DNA of 63,860 bases. Source: Myxococcales bacterium (GTDB lineage Bacteria; Myxococcota_A; UBA9042). Position numbers and translations under genes: made by a program. The notes under the pieces are model-generated. The model had not been told where the DNA came from. It was given only the letters and a program-made list of their open reading frames with translations, and ran no database searches. The DNA lies in assembly GCA_009692425.1 (NCBI GenBank), contig SHZF01000019.1:1-63860 (forward strand). Reading direction: 5' to 3'. Numbering within the stretch: position 1 is the stretch's first letter; the number at the start of each line of letters is the position of its first letter. Below are positions 11,103 to 17,976 of the stretch, one piece after another.

Positions 11103-12920
11103 CTAGACGGCGACCTGGCGCTGGGGGCTCGCCGTCACGGCGACCTGCGTCGGCACGGCGCAACTCGGTTTCCTGACCGTCGGTGTGTGCCGTGGTCGAT
11201 TCGCTCGAACGCCAGCGCGTGCTGCAGAGGGTGCTGGCGTACCTGTTCGGCTAGCCACTTCTGGAGCAACGGGTGGCGTACCTGTCCGAGTCGCGGCCGG
11301 GTCGCACGTCGGCCACACTGCAGGCACGTCCGTCGGTGCGCGCTGCCCGGGTCGGGCGGTCAGACGGAGCCGCCAGCCGGCGTGACCGCGCAGGTGCGGA
11401 TTGCTCTTGTAGAACGCACAGATCGAGGCCCGGTTCGCCGCAAACGCTGGGCCGCGCCGCAAGAGCACGACTGCGAGGCCGTCCTGCCAAGCGAGTTGGA
11501 ACTGACTCGGGTCCGGCGGCGGCACCTGCAAGTAGTCGCGGTGACGCTGCACGAACACGTCGAGCCGGTGCTTTTCGAACAGCGCGGCATGGCCGGGGGC
11601 GCGCACCTGCATCGCAATGCCATCTTCGACGACGCCTTGGCCCGCCAGCAACCAGCGGCCGTCGAGGTACACCTGTTGGCGCGGCGCCAGGTGCCAGGCG
11701 AGGTAGCCGCCCCAAGCGTCGGGGTTGAACAGGCGGCCCGTCAGTTTCGTTTCGTGCAGGAACGCCGTGGCGAGCACCGGGAACACGCGGCCGTCGACTG
11801 CAGGTCCGCCGGCGTGGGACACCAGCGCCAGCACCCCGCCCACCGCACACGCCAAGGCCGCAGCCGCCGAGGCCAGCGCCGCCACGGTTGCGCCCGCGCG
11901 GAGCAGCGGCAGCGGCCGCGCCAACACGAAAAGCAGCGTCACGAACAGGAATGCCGTCATGCGTCGGGTCGCCGCGGCGTGCGCCACCGCGACCAGGGCG
12001 GCCAGCGTACCCGGAGCGTCGGCAGTCCCCCGCGCTCGCACGGCCGTCCATATGGCGCGGGCGGCCAGCGCTCCAAACACCGCCAGCAGCATGGGCTGGG
12101 TGCGGGCCACGTCGAAGGCAAGCAGCGGCTGCCACTCGTCCGAAAGTGCACCGTTGATGGCCTGCGACCGGAGCACATAGCCGACGATGTCCAGCCCGAG
12201 CGGCTGGCATAGCCCGGCAGCCCCAAGGGCGACGGTACGCAGCGCGGGCTCCCGCCAGGGTCTGGTTTTCAGGAGCAACTCGCGCCAAGGCGAGGCCCGG
12301 ATCGTGGAACGGTGCGCGACCACAACCTCAGCGAGCCCGAGCCCTGCATACATCGGCGCGATGACGGCGCTCGAGTGGGTGTTCGCCCACAGCACCGTCA
12401 GCAGGGTCCACCCCAGCGTCCGTGCGCGACTCCACGGCGCCGCGTCGCCGACACCCAGGCCGACGACGGCCAGCGCGAAAAGCCACGCCAAGGCATGGGG
12501 TCGCGGCGTCAGGTGGGGCAGCACGAGCAGCGTCCAGCCCGCCACGAGCAGCGCCGTCGCCGGCGGGCCGAGCCGGTGTTGGCGACCCAACCGCACCAAC
12601 AGCGCCACACAGCCCGCGGCCACCAGCGCAAGCAACCCCTTGAGCGCGTTCAGGCCGCCCATGTCGGCGACGGCGCCGATGACGAGTTGGGCGAGCCACT
12701 CATGGGGCTGGTCGCCGCCGCGATCGGTCCACACGAAAGGGTCCGGCGTCGGGAGCGCGCGGCCGTGCTCGAGCATCCAGCGCCCCACGGCGGCGTGCAT
12801 GGGGACGTCGGAATTGTCGATGGGCGCCCACGTCGCCCCCACAAGCAGCAGCCCGGCGAGCCACGGCAGCGGCACGCTCCAGGGTGGCGGGGCGGCGGTC
12901 AGCGGATCGGCTGCAGACAT
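11103..12920 (-). CDS. Large polytopic membrane protein, GT-C glycosyltransferase-like
   Basis: A 605-residue protein with about ten hydrophobic helices followed by a soluble C-terminal part. Near the N-terminus an extracytoplasmic loop after the first helix carries DNSDVPMHAAVGRWMLEHG and PHEWLAQ. The D-x-x-x-H and HEWL pattern is common in uncharacterised GT-C-type membrane proteins. After the last helix there is LTGRLFNPDAWGGYLAWHL and YLDGRWLLAG, also typical of that group. The last 80 residues are low-complexity (Thr/Pro/Arg/Ala-rich) and may be disordered. ATG at 12920 follows the peroxiredoxin stop by 48 bases. Possible role: transfer of a lipid-linked sugar at the envelope; this is inference from topology only. 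Confidence 0.6.
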   Translation of the reverse strand: MSAADPLTAAPPPWSVPLPWLAGLLLVGATWAPIDNSDVPMHAAVGRWMLEHGRALPTPDPFVWTDRGGDQPHEWLAQLVIGAVADMGGLNALKGLLALVAAGCVALLVRLGRQHRLGPPATALLVAGWTLLVLPHLTPRPHALAWLFALAVVGLGVGDAAPWSRARTLGWTLLTVLWANTHSSAVIAPMYAGLGLAEVVVAHRSTIRASPWRELLLKTRPWREPALRTVALGAAGLCQPLGLDIVGYVLRSQAINGALSDEWQPLLAFDVARTQPMLLAVFGALAARAIWTAVRARGTADAPGTLAALVAVAHAAATRRMTAFLFVTLLFVLARPLPLLRAGATVAALASAAAALACAVGGVLALVSHAGGPAVDGRVFPVLATAFLHETKLTGRLFNPDAWGGYLAWHLAPRQQVYLDGRWLLAGQGVVEDGIAMQVRAPGHAALFEKHRLDVFVQRHRDYLQVPPPDPSQFQLAWQDGLAVVLLRRGPAFAANRASICAFYKSNPHLRGHAGWRLRLTARPGQRAPTDVPAVWPTCDPAATRTGTPPVAPEVASRTGTPAPSAARAGVRANRPRHTPTVRKPSCAVPTQVAVTASPQRQVAV

Positions 12921-12968: not shown

Positions 12969-13769
12969 CTATTTGCCCATCAACGCCTTCAAGTCCGCCA
13001 GCACCACCTTCGCATGGTCGTACTCGAGAAACGCGATCGAAGCCTCCGGGTACAGCAGCGTCCAGGTGCCGGTCGGGTCCAATACCACGGTGATCCGGTT
13101 CGCGAAGAACTGGGTCTTCGTCTTGGCTGCCCCGTACCACAGCGCCAGTTCGCGTTGCGTGTCGCTCCACAGGGCGAACTTGAAGCTCTCGACTTCCTTG
13201 AATTTCGCGTTTTTGGCCGGGGCATCGAACGAGACACCGACCACTTGCACGCCCAACACATTGAACTCGCCCTGGAGGTCGCGGAACCCGCAACCCTCAG
13301 CCGTTCAACCCGACGTCTGGGCCGCCGGGTAGAACCACATCACGGTCCACTTTCCCACGAGGTCGGCGGGGTCGATGAGGTAGCCGGTCGAGTCCTTGAC
13401 GGCGACCGTTTTCGGCAGGGCCTTGGGCTCCGGTGCCGCCAGGCCTGACGTCGCGATGATGGGCTTGGGCACGTCTGCAGGACCCACGTCGATGCCGGGG
13501 GCCGCGGCGTCGGGACTCGCCACGTCGATGGGCGCGGCCGCATCGGCCACCGTTGCCACGGCCGGAACGACTTCTTGTGCAGCGGCCACCGCGTCCGCCG
13601 CCGCGCCATCCGCCGAGCGATCCGCGGAGTCCGCCACCACCACCGCGCCGCCAACACCGGCAGTCGTCGGCGGGATGGGCGCCGCGCAGCCACCCAACGC
13701 CCAAAGCGCGGCCCAGCCCACGGCCCTTGCTGTGGTCGATCGGGTCGCTGCCCACCTTGCCGTTCGCAT
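12969..13769 (-). CDS. Selenocysteine-containing peroxiredoxin lipoprotein (UGA read-through)
   Basis: A 266-residue protein if the in-frame UGA at 13307-13305 is read as Sec155. Upstream of it the frame encodes a lipoprotein signal (WAALWALGGC), an Ala/Asp/Pro linker and the Prx strand WTVMWFYPAAQTSG. Downstream, in the same frame, it continues TAEGCGFRDLQGEF, then VQVVGVSFDAP and a complete thioredoxin-fold C-terminus ending DLKALMGK. In Bcp/PrxQ proteins this is FYP..xTPGCTxEAC: the peroxidatic Cys is exactly where UGA stands, and a Cys follows at +5. A hairpin fitting a bacterial SECIS starts right after the UGA. Start ATG 13769 has GGAG upstream and a good promoter. The enzyme would reduce peroxides on the cell surface or in the periplasm. 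SelA/SelB genes are not in this window. Confidence 0.85.
13272..13300 (-). promoter_or_regulatory. Candidate bacterial SECIS hairpin for Sec insertion
   Basis: In transcript direction the eight bases GGTTGCGG (13295-13288) pair completely with CCGCGACC (13284-13277) around the loop GTT. A lower CTG/CAG helix (13300-13298 with 13274-13272) extends it across one mismatch. The apical loop begins 17 bases after the UGA and its first base is G. This matches the known bacterial SECIS design: a short stem, a small loop with a guanine among its first bases and about 16-37 bases from the UGA. Confidence 0.7.
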
Positions 13770-14146
13770 CGTTTGCTCCTCCCGCCCCTGCCGAGGCACC
13801 AGGAGCGAACCGTACCTGTCGCGGCGAGCGGGGGCAATTGAAATGCGACGCTGGCGAATGCGTCCCTGCGGCTTTGTCCCCACCCAACACCTCCGCGATA
13901 CCGCAGGCTCGCCACCAGCCTGACCTGCCGGCACCGCAAGGTCCTGTGCCGATGTTGGAATCCGCGACAGTGTTCGTGGCCCCGCAGCGCTACTGCTGCC
14001 ATCCACGACCACTCGTTTTCGGGCGCCTGCGGGGTTGCGTATGGCTGTAGCCTACATGAGCGCTACCAGTTCGACAGCGGCGATCCTGCCGACCAGTCGG
14101 TGCGCGCGGAGGTGGCGGTGAGGCCAAGTTGTGGCTGTGAAACGGC
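13770..14146. other. Intergenic stretch upstream of the peroxiredoxin gene
   Basis: 377 bases without a recognised gene. The proximal part holds the peroxiredoxin promoter. On the plus strand about 40 codons ending near 14138 (YQFDSGDPADQSVRAEVAV and SCGCE) look weakly coding but have no convincing start and run into the antisense of the next gene; they may be a gene scrap. I see no clear terminator hairpin. Confidence 0.4.
13809..13837 (-). promoter_or_regulatory. Predicted promoter of the seleno-peroxiredoxin gene
   Basis: On the minus strand TTGCCC (13837-13832) and TACGGT (13814-13809) are separated by 17 bp. The implied start near 13802 gives a leader of about 33 bases that contains GGAGGAG before the ATG at 13769. 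Confidence 0.45.
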
Positions 14147-16609
14147 CTACCCCTTGATCCGCAAGTTCCCCGCATCATACATCGGCCGCAGCGACACCCT
14201 CGCCGCCACCCGCCGCCCCGCCACCTCGACCGTCCACACTTGGGCCTCGATCCAGGCCGGATCGATGGGCACGTCGGCTTCGATGAGCGCCAGCCCGACC
14301 GCGCCACCCAGCGTGAAGCCATACGACGCCGAGCGCACGTAGCCCGCGCGCCGCTCGCCGCACCACACGACTTCGGCGTGGAAAAGCAGCGGCTCGGGGT
14401 CCAGCAACAGCACCTGCACCAGCCGGCGCCGCTGCGGGCCCTTGCGCGCCAAGGTCGCTTCCTTGCCGAGAAAGCCGTCGGGCTTGTTCAGGTCCACCGC
14501 GAAGCCGAGCCCCGCCTGCCAGACGTCGTCGGTGTTGTCGATGTCGTGGCCATAGTCGCGGTAGCCCTTCTCCATGCGCAGGCTGCCGAGCGCCTTCAGC
14601 CCGGCGTGGCGCAGTCCGACCGGTGCGCCCGCCGCCAGCAGTTGGTCGTAGACATGGCCCGCCTGCTCGACCGGAATGTACAACTCGTAGCCCAACTCAC
14701 CCACATACGTGATCCGCACGCACGTCGCACGCGCAAAGCCGATGTCGATCTCGCGGACGCCGCGGAACGGCAGCGCAGCATCGGACACATCGGCCGACGT
14801 CACCTTGGCCAGCACTTCTCGTGCGCGCGGCCCTTGCACGTTCAACTGGGCCAGCGCGCCGGTAACGTCGGTGACGAACGCGTGGGCATCGCTTGGAATG
14901 TGCCGCTTTAGCCACCACTGCACATGGCGGTGCGCGGTGTCGGTCGCCACGACGAGGAAGCGGTCGGCGGCGAGCTTGGTCACGGTCAGGTCGGCCTCCA
15001 GCGTGCCGCCTTCGTTGAGCCACTGGGTGTAGGTGATGACTCCGATCTCGCCATCGACGCGGTTGGCCGACACGTGGTCGAGCCAGCGCCCGGCGTCGCG
15101 CCCCTGGACCAGGAACTTGGCCATGAACGACATGTCGATCAGCACCACGGCCTCGCGTGCGGCGACGTGTTCCGCCCGCCACCACTCGAACCAGTGCTGG
15201 CGGCCCCACGACAGTTGGCCCCGCTCGGCGGCGTGACCGGGCGGCGCAAACCAGTCGGCGCCTTCCCAACCGCTGACATCTCGAAAATAAGCGCCTTTTG
15301 CCGCGAGCCGGTCGTGCAGTGCCGACACCTTCGCACCGCGCGCGGTCTGCGGTGCCATCGTGGGATAATGGCAGCGGTACACCATGCCCAGCATCTCGAC
15401 CGTGCGCGTGCGGCGGTAGGCGGGGTTGGCTTGGTACGGATGCAGCCGCGCGATGTCCATGCCGGTGATGTCGACGTCGGCGCGGCCGTGCACAATCCAG
15501 TGGGCGAGCACACGGCCGAGCCCGCCGCCGGTCAGGATGCCGATGGAGTTGAGGCCGGCGGCGACGAAGAAGTTCCGCAGTTCCGGGGCTTCGCCGACGA
15601 TGGGGCGCAGGTCGGGCGTGAAGCTCTCGGGGCCACAGAAGAACTTGCGGATGCCGGCGTCGAGGCTCGCAGGCACGCGCGCCATCGCCTTTTCGACGTA
15701 GGGGCCCATGCGGTCCCAGTCGGGGCGGATTTCGCCAAACGAGAAGTCGGCCGGAACACCGTCCACCTTCCACGGCGCGCACACCGGCTCGAACAGGCCG
15801 ATCATCAGCCCGCCGACCTCTTCGCGGTAGTAGCCGTACGACGCCGGGTCTTCGAGCACGGGCCAGTCGTTGCCGATGCCGGCGATGCGCTCCGTGATGA
15901 GGTAGTAGTGCTCTGCCGACTGCAGCGGCACCGACACGCCAGCCAAGGCACCGAACTGGCGCGCCCACATGCCACAGCAGTTCACGACGACGTCGCACGC
16001 AATGTCGCCCGCCGCCGTACGCACTCCCGTCACCGCGCCGCCCGATTGCAGCACGCCCGTGGCCGGCGTCTCCTCAAGAATTCGCACACCCAACGCGCGC
16101 GCGCCCTTGGCCAACGCCATGGTGACATCGACGGGGTTCACGCGGCCGTCACCGGGCACATAGAAGCCGGCCAGCAGGTCGTCGGTGCGCGCCAGCGGAA
16201 AGCGCTCGCCGACCTCGCGTGGCGAGATTTCGTGGACCTCGATGCCGCAGCAGCGGTTGAACGCAGACACCCGCCGGTACTCCTCGAGCCGATCCGCGTC
16301 GCCGGCCACTTCGATGAAGCCGACAGGTTTGAAGCCGGTGGCCTGGCCGGTCTCGGCCTCCAGACGCCCGTAGAGGTCGCGCGTGTACTTGCGCAGTTCG
16401 GTCGAGGTCTCCGAGGTTGAGCCGAACGTGACCATCAGGCCCGCGGCGTGCCAGGTCGTGCCCGAGGTGACGCGGTCCCGTTCGAGCACCACGACGTCGC
16501 GGCAGCCCAGGTGCGCCAGATGGTAGGCGACCGAGCAGCCGATGATGCCGCCGCCGACGACGACGACGCGGGCCTGGGAGGGGACGCTGCCTGCCGTTGC
16601 CGACGTCAT
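14147..16609 (-). CDS. FAD-dependent N-methylglycine (dimethylglycine/sarcosine) dehydrogenase-like protein with GcvT domains
   Basis: An 820-residue two-part enzyme. The N-terminal half is a DAO-type FAD oxidoreductase: VVVVGGGIIGCSVAYHLAHL (dinucleotide fold) and SGTTWHAAGL, where the His of the TWHAAG motif is the usual covalent-flavin site in dimethylglycine and sarcosine dehydrogenases. The C-terminal half is a GcvT/aminomethyltransferase fold: LIDMSFMAKFLVQG, LNVQGPRAREVL, ITYVGELGYELYIP and the final AGYVRSASYGFTLGG. Together they oxidatively demethylate an N-methyl amine and pass the one-carbon unit to tetrahydrofolate. Length fits dimethylglycine dehydrogenase. The ATG at 16609 overlaps the sodC stop (ATGA), so the two are co-translated. 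The exact substrate is not fixed by what I can see. Confidence 0.85.
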   Translation of the reverse strand: MTSATAGSVPSQARVVVVGGGIIGCSVAYHLAHLGCRDVVVLERDRVTSGTTWHAAGLMVTFGSTSETSTELRKYTRDLYGRLEAETGQATGFKPVGFIEVAGDADRLEEYRRVSAFNRCCGIEVHEISPREVGERFPLARTDDLLAGFYVPGDGRVNPVDVTMALAKGARALGVRILEETPATGVLQSGGAVTGVRTAAGDIACDVVVNCCGMWARQFGALAGVSVPLQSAEHYYLITERIAGIGNDWPVLEDPASYGYYREEVGGLMIGLFEPVCAPWKVDGVPADFSFGEIRPDWDRMGPYVEKAMARVPASLDAGIRKFFCGPESFTPDLRPIVGEAPELRNFFVAAGLNSIGILTGGGLGRVLAHWIVHGRADVDITGMDIARLHPYQANPAYRRTRTVEMLGMVYRCHYPTMAPQTARGAKVSALHDRLAAKGAYFRDVSGWEGADWFAPPGHAAERGQLSWGRQHWFEWWRAEHVAAREAVVLIDMSFMAKFLVQGRDAGRWLDHVSANRVDGEIGVITYTQWLNEGGTLEADLTVTKLAADRFLVVATDTAHRHVQWWLKRHIPSDAHAFVTDVTGALAQLNVQGPRAREVLAKVTSADVSDAALPFRGVREIDIGFARATCVRITYVGELGYELYIPVEQAGHVYDQLLAAGAPVGLRHAGLKALGSLRMEKGYRDYGHDIDNTDDVWQAGLGFAVDLNKPDGFLGKEATLARKGPQRRRLVQVLLLDPEPLLFHAEVVWCGERRAGYVRSASYGFTLGGAVGLALIEADVPIDPAWIEAQVWTVEVAGRRVAARVSLRPMYDAGNLRIKG

Positions 16610-17280
16610 TTGGCGGCCGCCGGGGGAACGGGAGCGGGTGCTGGGGCCAGTGCCGGAGTGGGCGCTGAAGTGGGCGCTAAAGTCGGCACTGCCGGCGCCG
16701 CGCCGATGACGCCGCACCCGATGCGTGCGCCCGCGTTGCCGGCAGGCTGGCCGCCGTCGTCGGTTTTGGCGTGGATGATGACTCCGCGCCCGAGCACCGC
16801 GTTCTTGGCCGTGAGGCTTGCCAGCGTCAGCGTCACCTCGAGGTCGGCGACTCCGTTGGCGTCGGCCGTCAGGTTGCCGAGGTCACCGGCGTGGCGCTGC
16901 GGCTTGTCCGTCAGGCCGTGGTCGTGGCCGTCCGGGTTGAAGTGCCCGCCCGCCGAACTCGCGTCGGGCTTGCTGCAGTCGCCGAAGTCGTGGACGTGAA
17001 AGCCATGCTGCGCGCCCGGCGTCAGCCCTTCGACGTGGGCCGTGACCTTGAGCTCCTTGCCCTCCTGCACGAACCGCACGCTGCCCTTGACGGCCGCGCC
17101 CGACGCCGCCACCAGCCAGGCCACGGCGGTCGTCACCGGCGCAGACTTCGCGGGCTTCGCGGCCGCAGCCGGGTACTTGGCCGTCTTGCTGGGCACGCCA
17201 TTGGCGACGCCGGCACCCAGCACACAGAAGACGGCAACGACACCAAGCGAGGCCTGGATGGCAGATGAGCAATAGCTCAT
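16606..17280 (-). CDS. sodC: Cu/Zn superoxide dismutase, exported
   Basis: A 224-residue SodC. A signal peptide (QASLGVVAVFCVLGAGVANG) is followed by a Lys/Ala linker and the dismutase domain. Metal ligands are visible in HGFHVHDFGDC, AGGHFNPDGHDHG and the HAGDLGN segment; the disulfide cysteines are in GDC and RIGCGVIG. The end is a Pro/Ala/Thr-rich tail (APTSAPTPALAPAPAPVPP), which may span the cell wall or tether the protein. It converts superoxide to peroxide and oxygen in the periplasm or at the surface. ATG 17280 has GGAG about 8 bases upstream. The same frame is open upstream into a truncated cyclase, so a fused ORF exists; I separate them because the signal peptide belongs at an N-terminus. 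Confidence 0.9.
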   Translation of the reverse strand: MSYCSSAIQASLGVVAVFCVLGAGVANGVPSKTAKYPAAAAKPAKSAPVTTAVAWLVAASGAAVKGSVRFVQEGKELKVTAHVEGLTPGAQHGFHVHDFGDCSKPDASSAGGHFNPDGHDHGLTDKPQRHAGDLGNLTADANGVADLEVTLTLASLTAKNAVLGRGVIIHAKTDDGGQPAGNAGARIGCGVIGAAPAVPTLAPTSAPTPALAPAPAPVPPAAAK

Positions 17281-17976
17281 GGAGACTCCTCGGGTGCGTG
17301 AGGCGGCACCTCTGCAATGTGGGTGGCAGCGACGAGCGACGAGACCAAGAACGCGCGGCACCGGTAGCCCGGCGACGCACATATAGGCGTCGCCGATCGT
17401 CTTGATTTTTTCGACGCCGTGGCGGTCAGCAAGCCCGTAAAAATGCGTAAAAATGCCGTTGAGCAGCCCTACCAGGTCATCCGGTTCCACGCGGGCCGAC
17501 ATGGCGGTGAAGCCAGCGAGGTCGCAGAACAGCACCGAAGTCTCGTCGAAGCGCTCTGCAATGATGCCCGGCTTGTGCTTCAGGCGCTCGGCAATCTCGA
17601 TCGGCAAGATGTTGAGCAGCAACCGATCCGACTGGCGCAGCGCCATGCCGAGCTTCTGGGTCAGGTCGTGGACGGCGTCGAGCATCCGGTTGATGGCGTC
17701 GGTCATGCTCGAAAGTTCGTCGTGGCCATCGACGGGAACGCGTACGCCCGCGTTCGGCGCCGCGGCCACCTTGCCCACCTGCAGCGAAACGCGCGCGAGA
17801 CGATCGAGCACCAGGCGCTTGAGCGTCGCCAGCGTGGCCAGCCCGAAGATCGCGCCGGTGAGCAGCACGGAGCGCAGCGGCAGGTACAGGCCGGCGACGA
17901 GCGTGTCGGTGATGAAGGCCAGAACCGTAAGCACGCAGGCGCGCAGCGAAGTCCACCGCGGCGCGCGTTCCGTCAT
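17281..17976 (-). pseudogene. Truncated class III adenylate/guanylate cyclase, broken next to sodC
   Basis: The frame begins with two membrane helices (LRACVLTVLAFITDTLVAGL and LLTGAIFGLATLATL), a HAMP-like segment (DGHDELSSMTDAINRMLDAV), the pre-cyclase linker LLLNILPIEIAERLK and the cyclase start VLFCDLAGFTAMSA. It runs to IKTIGDAYMCVAGLPVPR, then leaves the family at about 17352. The remaining two thirds of the catalytic domain, including the transition-state Asn/Arg region, are missing. The frame continues without a stop through about 24 unrelated codons into sodC. It is best read as a deletion or recombination scar and cannot be an active cyclase. A promoter-like sequence still precedes it. 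Confidence 0.75.

Follow-up and report, generated by a model that had tools for sequence, protein, structure and literature searches.

Selenocysteine in a lipoprotein-type peroxiredoxin

The minus strand of the window (the whole stretch of DNA that was analysed, 63,860 nucleotides from the draft assembly of a Myxococcales bacterium) very probably encodes a single UGA-decoded selenoprotein, a peroxiredoxin of the PrxQ/Bcp type that carries a lipoprotein-type signal, is tethered in the cell envelope and cycles between Sec155 and Cys160 (Table 1). The order of parts in the read-through product is signal peptide, Cys28, Ala/Asp-rich linker and AhpC-TSA domain, and the translated frame around the TGA codon reads WFYPAAQTSG-U-TAEGCGFRDLQGEF. 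When the sequence was read again, the frame and its coordinates, the TGA at 13307-13305, its place as codon 155, the signal peptide and the Ala/Asp linker were all as an earlier note on this DNA had described them. The joined protein matches the Pfam AhpC-TSA model with a score of 1.7e-23, compared to 0.22 for the 5' half alone and 1.4e-13 for the other half. When the window was scanned on both strands for read-through, four candidates with codon-like composition on either side of a stop remained, and the selenoperoxidase gene is the only one of them whose hairpin at the SECIS position exceeds 6 bp. TGA terminates other genes within the window, so the genetic code is standard. Automatic annotation probably splits this gene, and those of its clade, into two at the UGA.

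Table 1. Features of the selenoperoxidase gene and its flanking genes, in positions of the window.
Feature	Position	Strand	Details and basis
Selenoprotein CDS	12969..13769	(-)	266 residues; ATG 13769-13767, TAG stop 12971-12969; one in-frame TGA
Shine-Dalgarno-like GGGAGGAG	13776..13783	(-)	6 nt upstream of ATG; from sequence
Signal peptidase II-type signal peptide and lipobox (predicted)	13686..13769	(-)	residues 1-27, then Cys28; ALGG before the cleavage site, C after it; pattern and 18 homologues
Ala/Asp-rich linker	13416..13685	(-)	residues 29-118; mostly low confidence or disordered to about residue 100
PrxQ/Bcp-type peroxiredoxin domain	12972..13415	(-)	residues 119-266; Pfam AhpC-TSA, AlphaFold2, Foldseek
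Sec155 TGA codon, peroxidatic position	13305..13307	(-)	TGA in 19/19 aligned relatives and in 49 Sec tree rows
Cys160 codon, predicted resolving Cys	13290..13292	(-)	in the helix of Sec155; model and alignment
SECIS hairpin	13277..13295	(-)	stem GGUUGCGG 13295-13288, loop GUU 13287-13285, stem CCGCGACC 13284-13277
Flanking gene, dimethylglycine/sarcosine dehydrogenase-like (DAO + GCV_T)	14147-16717	(-)	
Flanking gene, 605-residue protein	11103-12920	(-)	no Pfam match

Conservation of the TGA codon and the selenocysteine machinery

A read error can be dismissed, since at least 49 non-identical relatives, from Myxococcota and related metagenome bins, have TGA at the same codon. Among 53 relatives searched, 18 other genomes contain close homologues that each have a single internal TGA, the ordinary Cys paralogues in the same search being mostly at or below 40% identity, and alignment of each homologue placed the TGA at the identical codon in 19/19. 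Dozens of TGA matches came from a 237-genome sample of the phylum, and across 84,980 scanned genomes there were 42 TGA loci (some of them repeats of the same genes), mostly from Myxococcota bins of lakes, sea and sediment. Downstream of the TGA, the reading frame and the active-site residues are conserved in the relatives. The earlier note had allowed that TGC or TGT at this site in close homologues would expose a sequencing error, but the close homologues have TGA; it had also placed the TGA where PrxQ/Bcp enzymes have their peroxidatic Cys, and Cys is indeed the residue found there in homologues and in reverted forms. Public metagenome-assembled genomes labelled Klebsiella pneumoniae or Bifidobacterium breve (loci L068, L069, L079 and L102) carry Myxococcota-type genes of the clade, and their labels look wrong.

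The genome of the organism (4.94 Mb, 96% complete) contains selA, selB, two selD and two tRNA-Sec (selC) genes, all scoring over curated cut-offs, which answers the earlier proposal to look for the four sel genes. Among relatives, selA was found in 47/49 carriers of the selenoperoxidase gene versus 39/62 non-carriers (Fisher p = 2e-5), an association that is supporting evidence only, given the relatedness of the genomes and the non-random choice of non-carriers; the two carriers with no selA match, G039 and G171, are draft genomes. The two tRNA-Sec genes (L001 at C68:6545-6637 and L002 at C7:4466-4558) differ from each other, and the same search found one each in the 18 relatives that had a match; the pair is due either to duplication or to a contaminating contig of the draft genome. 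One SelD (L019), the second, lies behind a flavin/NADH-dehydrogenase-like domain in a single open frame. Formate dehydrogenase alpha was considered as a further selenoprotein of the same genome and rejected, as no match scored above the cut-off and an internal stop was absent.

A SECIS hairpin under selection

The hairpin, which as DNA is GGTTGCGG-GTT-CCGCGACC, begins 9 nt after the UGA and presents its GTT loop at 17 nt. The perfect 8-bp stem and the GTT loop are as the earlier note gave them, but the distance of 17 bases that it assigned to the stem belongs to the loop. Published rules for bacterial SECIS elements specify a loop of 3-9 nt, an upper stem of 4-16 bp and G in the first two loop positions (PMC13188914), together with a spacing of 16-37 nt and a minimum free energy of at most -7.5 kcal/mol (PMC13188914); here the loop is 3 nt, the stem 8 bp, the first loop base G and the spacing 17 nt. 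The folding energy is -24.3 kcal/mol for a 60-nt stretch from the UGA and -27.7 kcal/mol for a 58-nt stretch, and the fold of the 58-nt region has z = -3.5, so that the RNA-folding check proposed for the hairpin returned a stable fold that obeys the bacterial rules. The exact hairpin occurs at one site in the genome, which is the selenoperoxidase gene; sites in the same genome with two or three mismatches to it were not commoner than those of a reversed-pattern control, and an Rfam scan of the region at a permissive threshold gave chance matches only and no SECIS family.

Synonymous codon choice in the relatives is loose before and after the hairpin and frozen across it. The glycine codons at +4 and +6 are GGT in 18/18 and GGG in 18/18, choices made for only 19% and 16%, respectively, of the glycines elsewhere in the same genes. 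All Sec forms (43/43) combine GGT with GGG, and no Cys form that encodes the identical GxG[FY]R peptide does so (0/15; p = 3.4e-14, a value that is only nominal because the rows are related). L136 and L137, which belong to the lipoprotein clade but have TGC in place of the TGA, read GGC TGC GGY TAC CGC GAT and have lost the element, in genomes that retain selA. These three comparisons (frozen codons, Sec against Cys forms, and reverted forms) imply selection on the RNA and not on the protein only. Compensatory base changes were found in L036 and L038, and are few because the stem hardly varies. The comparative evidence strongly supports decoding of the UGA, in a selenocysteine context, by way of a selected SECIS element: SelB with Sec-tRNA would bind the hairpin just past the UGA and selenocysteine would be inserted at residue 155, a step likewise strongly supported by comparison.

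Peroxiredoxin fold and predicted catalytic cycle

The PrxQ fold of the domain is well supported, with a mean pLDDT of 94.4 in the AlphaFold2 model and Bcp/PrxQ enzymes as its nearest structures in Foldseek, BcpB (5epf) at the top. Scores against NCBIfam models are below their cut-offs (70.8 versus 140 bits for the PrxQ-type NF006960, 57.2 versus 260 bits for a further model of these families, and 26.9 versus 270 bits for PrxU), so the protein is not filed under the named PrxQ or PrxU models. Across 19 members, the active-site motif P-x3-T-x2-U is kept, with T152, G154, U155 and R225 invariant and P148 nearly so. U155 and C160 share one helix in the model; C160 is the +5 cysteine that had been reported as retained, and Cys28 and C160 are the only Cys residues of the mature protein.

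These features of the protein, together with PrxQ biochemistry, are the basis on which a peroxidase cycle with an intramolecular bond, here a U155-C160 selenenylsulfide, may be inferred. Sec155 would attack peroxide and become a selenenic acid, which Cys160 in the same helix would resolve as an Se-S bond, as in the PrxQ family. An envelope thiol donor would then regenerate the enzyme, a DsbD/CcdA-type relay being a candidate; one protein of the genome scores over the DsbD_TM cut-off. The resolving Cys is missing from L036 and from a sub-group with ESRG or EGRG (L039, L074 and L082), where the Se-S mechanism is thus impossible and another thiol would be needed. The latter three form a Sec sub-clade with a short linker in which ESRG/EGRG replaces EGCG; the long form (L052 and L053) is present as well in the bins that carry L074 and L082.

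Gene neighbourhoods, compared as a clue to a redox partner, had nothing in common beyond groups of close relatives, and no link to the peroxidase was detected for either of the genes that flank it. About 3 kb away (window 16606-17352, minus strand) is the gene for a Cu/Zn superoxide dismutase, an H2O2-producing enzyme that is probably exported; the arrangement is not conserved in relatives. The dismutase is joined in-frame (16606-17976, minus strand) to HAMP and a guanylate-cyclase domain that is cut short (positions 3-70 of the 183-position profile), and the superoxide dismutase part has its own likely start; the longer frame looks like the outcome of a truncation or frameshift upstream of the dismutase.

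Predicted export signal, linker and probable location

The signal sequence with its predicted cleavage site is MRTARWAATRSTTARAVGWAALWALGG followed by CAAP. By pattern, a short hydrophobic N-terminal stretch that ends in Cys can be assigned in 19/19 aligned members, and by eye nearly all additional members have the same N-terminus, the exceptions being L084 and L135, which show no clear lipobox; in L084 the upstream frame looks shifted. A few homologues have an atypical -3 residue in the lipobox (HVAC, NLAC). Cys28 hardly varies across the alignment, and its lone exception is an alignment artefact of the short L039. The linker is of variable length and rich in Ala, Asp, Ser, Thr and Gly, and residues 1-100 of the full-length AlphaFold2 model have low confidence, as expected of a signal and linker. 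In the sister clade, most Cys relatives start right at the domain, and a few more distant Cys paralogues have signals.

Export as a lipoprotein is likely from these sequence features. The signal peptide would take the chain over the inner membrane, where Cys28 would be lipidated, and the disordered Ala/Asp linker would let the enzyme extend from the membrane, probably the outer one. The Lys at +2 of Myxococcus inner-membrane lipoproteins is absent in 18/19 members, which favours the outer membrane as the probable site of the lipid anchor; the +7 residue of the window protein is Pro, not the Ala of secreted Myxococcus lipoproteins. Of the cell-surface placement suggested earlier, the lipid anchor is what the signal argues for; the enzyme may face either the periplasm or the outside.

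Alternative explanations

Gene callers would stop the first open reading frame at the TGA, and the window belongs to a draft assembly; both facts suit a reading in which the TGA is a true stop between two genes or in a pseudogene, or else a sequencing or assembly artefact. Such a reading is scarcely credible, because the same TGA recurs in independent assemblies from many genera and families and because the conserved frame and active-site residues beyond it refute the two-gene, pseudogene and error versions alike, while the selection on the hairpin codons opposes both a stop and an artefact. It is very improbable, too, that the UGA is read as another amino acid, or that read-through chiefly acts to switch from a short to a long product and back in response to selenium or stress: a 154-residue fragment would form when selenium is absent, but TGA ends other genes of the window, the residue that substitutes for it in homologues and reverted forms is Cys, and the presence of selABCD tells against another amino acid and against a switch.

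The two remaining alternatives accept the selenocysteine, and each is unlikely. A Sec-peroxiredoxin without a lipid anchor, soluble in the periplasm after cleavage of a secretion signal or in the cytosol if the start is misplaced, would accommodate the differences in lipobox between members and the two members in which no clear lipobox is seen; against it are the hydrophobic stretch that ends in Cys in all 19 aligned members despite the divergence of the linker, the near invariance of Cys28 and, as regards a misplaced start, the good ribosome-binding site of the start codon. An exported Sec protein that is not chiefly a peroxidase, with a thiol-disulfide or signalling role in the envelope, would fit the loss of the resolving Cys in some members, the lack of a conserved partner gene nearby and the hypothetical nature of any extracytoplasmic electron supply, but the peroxidase motif is kept, the nearest structures are those of Bcp/PrxQ peroxidases and a CxxC/UxxC motif is absent. 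The preferred reading remains an envelope-tethered selenoperoxidase.

Relation to known selenoproteins and evolutionary history

Sec peroxiredoxin is biochemically known from Eubacterium acidaminophilum. The family (Prx, TxxU, COG1225 Bcp / PF00578) is listed in surveys of selenoproteins (PMC1794560, PMC9312934, PMC13188914), and Anaeromyxobacter, a myxobacterium, was listed with three Sec peroxiredoxins in 2006 (PMC1794560); the family is known from deltaproteobacteria. The protein described here resembles the known Sec peroxiredoxins in fold family, in TxxU at the peroxidatic position and in having a UGA with a downstream SECIS, and differs in its added lipoprotein-type signal, its long low-complexity linker, its distinct clade and its nearly invariant hairpin. 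With Cys-type PrxQ/Bcp, a thioredoxin-dependent thiol peroxidase, it shares the fold, the active-site helix and the +5 resolving Cys, and the Cys-type sister clade shares the peptide EGCGFRD with the Sec clade; the Cys type has Cys for Sec and no SECIS codons, and the sister clade mostly has no export signal. The hairpin is like the E. coli fdhF SECIS in the letters GGTTGC[A/G]GGT and in GU in the loop, but the fdhF stem-loop is GGTTGCAGGTCTGCACC at 11 nt after the UGA, whereas the stem here is longer and uninterrupted, with a 3-nt loop, and starts at 9 nt. Prx-SUH, the UGC-type Prx-like and the ResA-like WAxxUGC families also combine a thioredoxin-like fold with a catalytic Sec, but in different motifs (CxxU, UGC and UxxC), and the best score of a homologue against the Prx-SUH model was 24 bits, compared to a cut-off of 298.

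A literature search for exported or lipoprotein Sec-peroxiredoxins and for Myxococcota selenoproteins found nothing relevant, two recent discovery papers being outside its coverage; the searched reviews make no mention of a lipid-anchored clade with a fixed SECIS, no NCBIfam model scored it above cut-off, and no lipoprotein NiFeSe hydrogenase was found in the literature as a precedent. The suggestion that fusion to a lipoprotein signal is new holds to the extent that the searched literature yielded no description of a lipoprotein clade, but Sec-peroxiredoxins themselves are known. A large Sec group in Myxococcota has apparently gone unrecognised so far.

In a maximum-likelihood tree of 80 domains, which covers the sequences of this search and not the Sec-peroxiredoxins of Geobacter and Clostridia, all 49 Sec rows fall into a single group together with the two reverted Cys rows (support 100/99), next to a Cys clade, for the most part without signals, from Acidobacteriota, Planctomycetota, Bdellovibrionota and Myxococcaceae. 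Read most simply, the tree implies that selenocysteine was gained once, together with or close to the acquisition of the export signal, and was lost once among the sampled rows, with a direction of change that is only inferred because the tree is midpoint-rooted.

A broader interpretation can be offered tentatively, at somewhat less than even confidence: Myxococcota of this clade may share a Sec peroxidase that is anchored in the outer membrane, perhaps on its outward side, and that clears extracytoplasmic peroxides including those of membrane lipids; selenocysteine would have arisen once, at about the time that the enzyme moved from cytosol to envelope, and the hairpin would have been kept nearly letter for letter since then, decaying after reversion to Cys. 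The finding raises the question of why selenium was gained upon the exit of a peroxidase from the cytoplasm, and which reductant serves it there. It also supplies a natural experiment on the SECIS element, in which one peptide motif is encoded with and without selenocysteine, the letters of the hairpin being frozen in the one case, free in the other, and decayed in the reversion.
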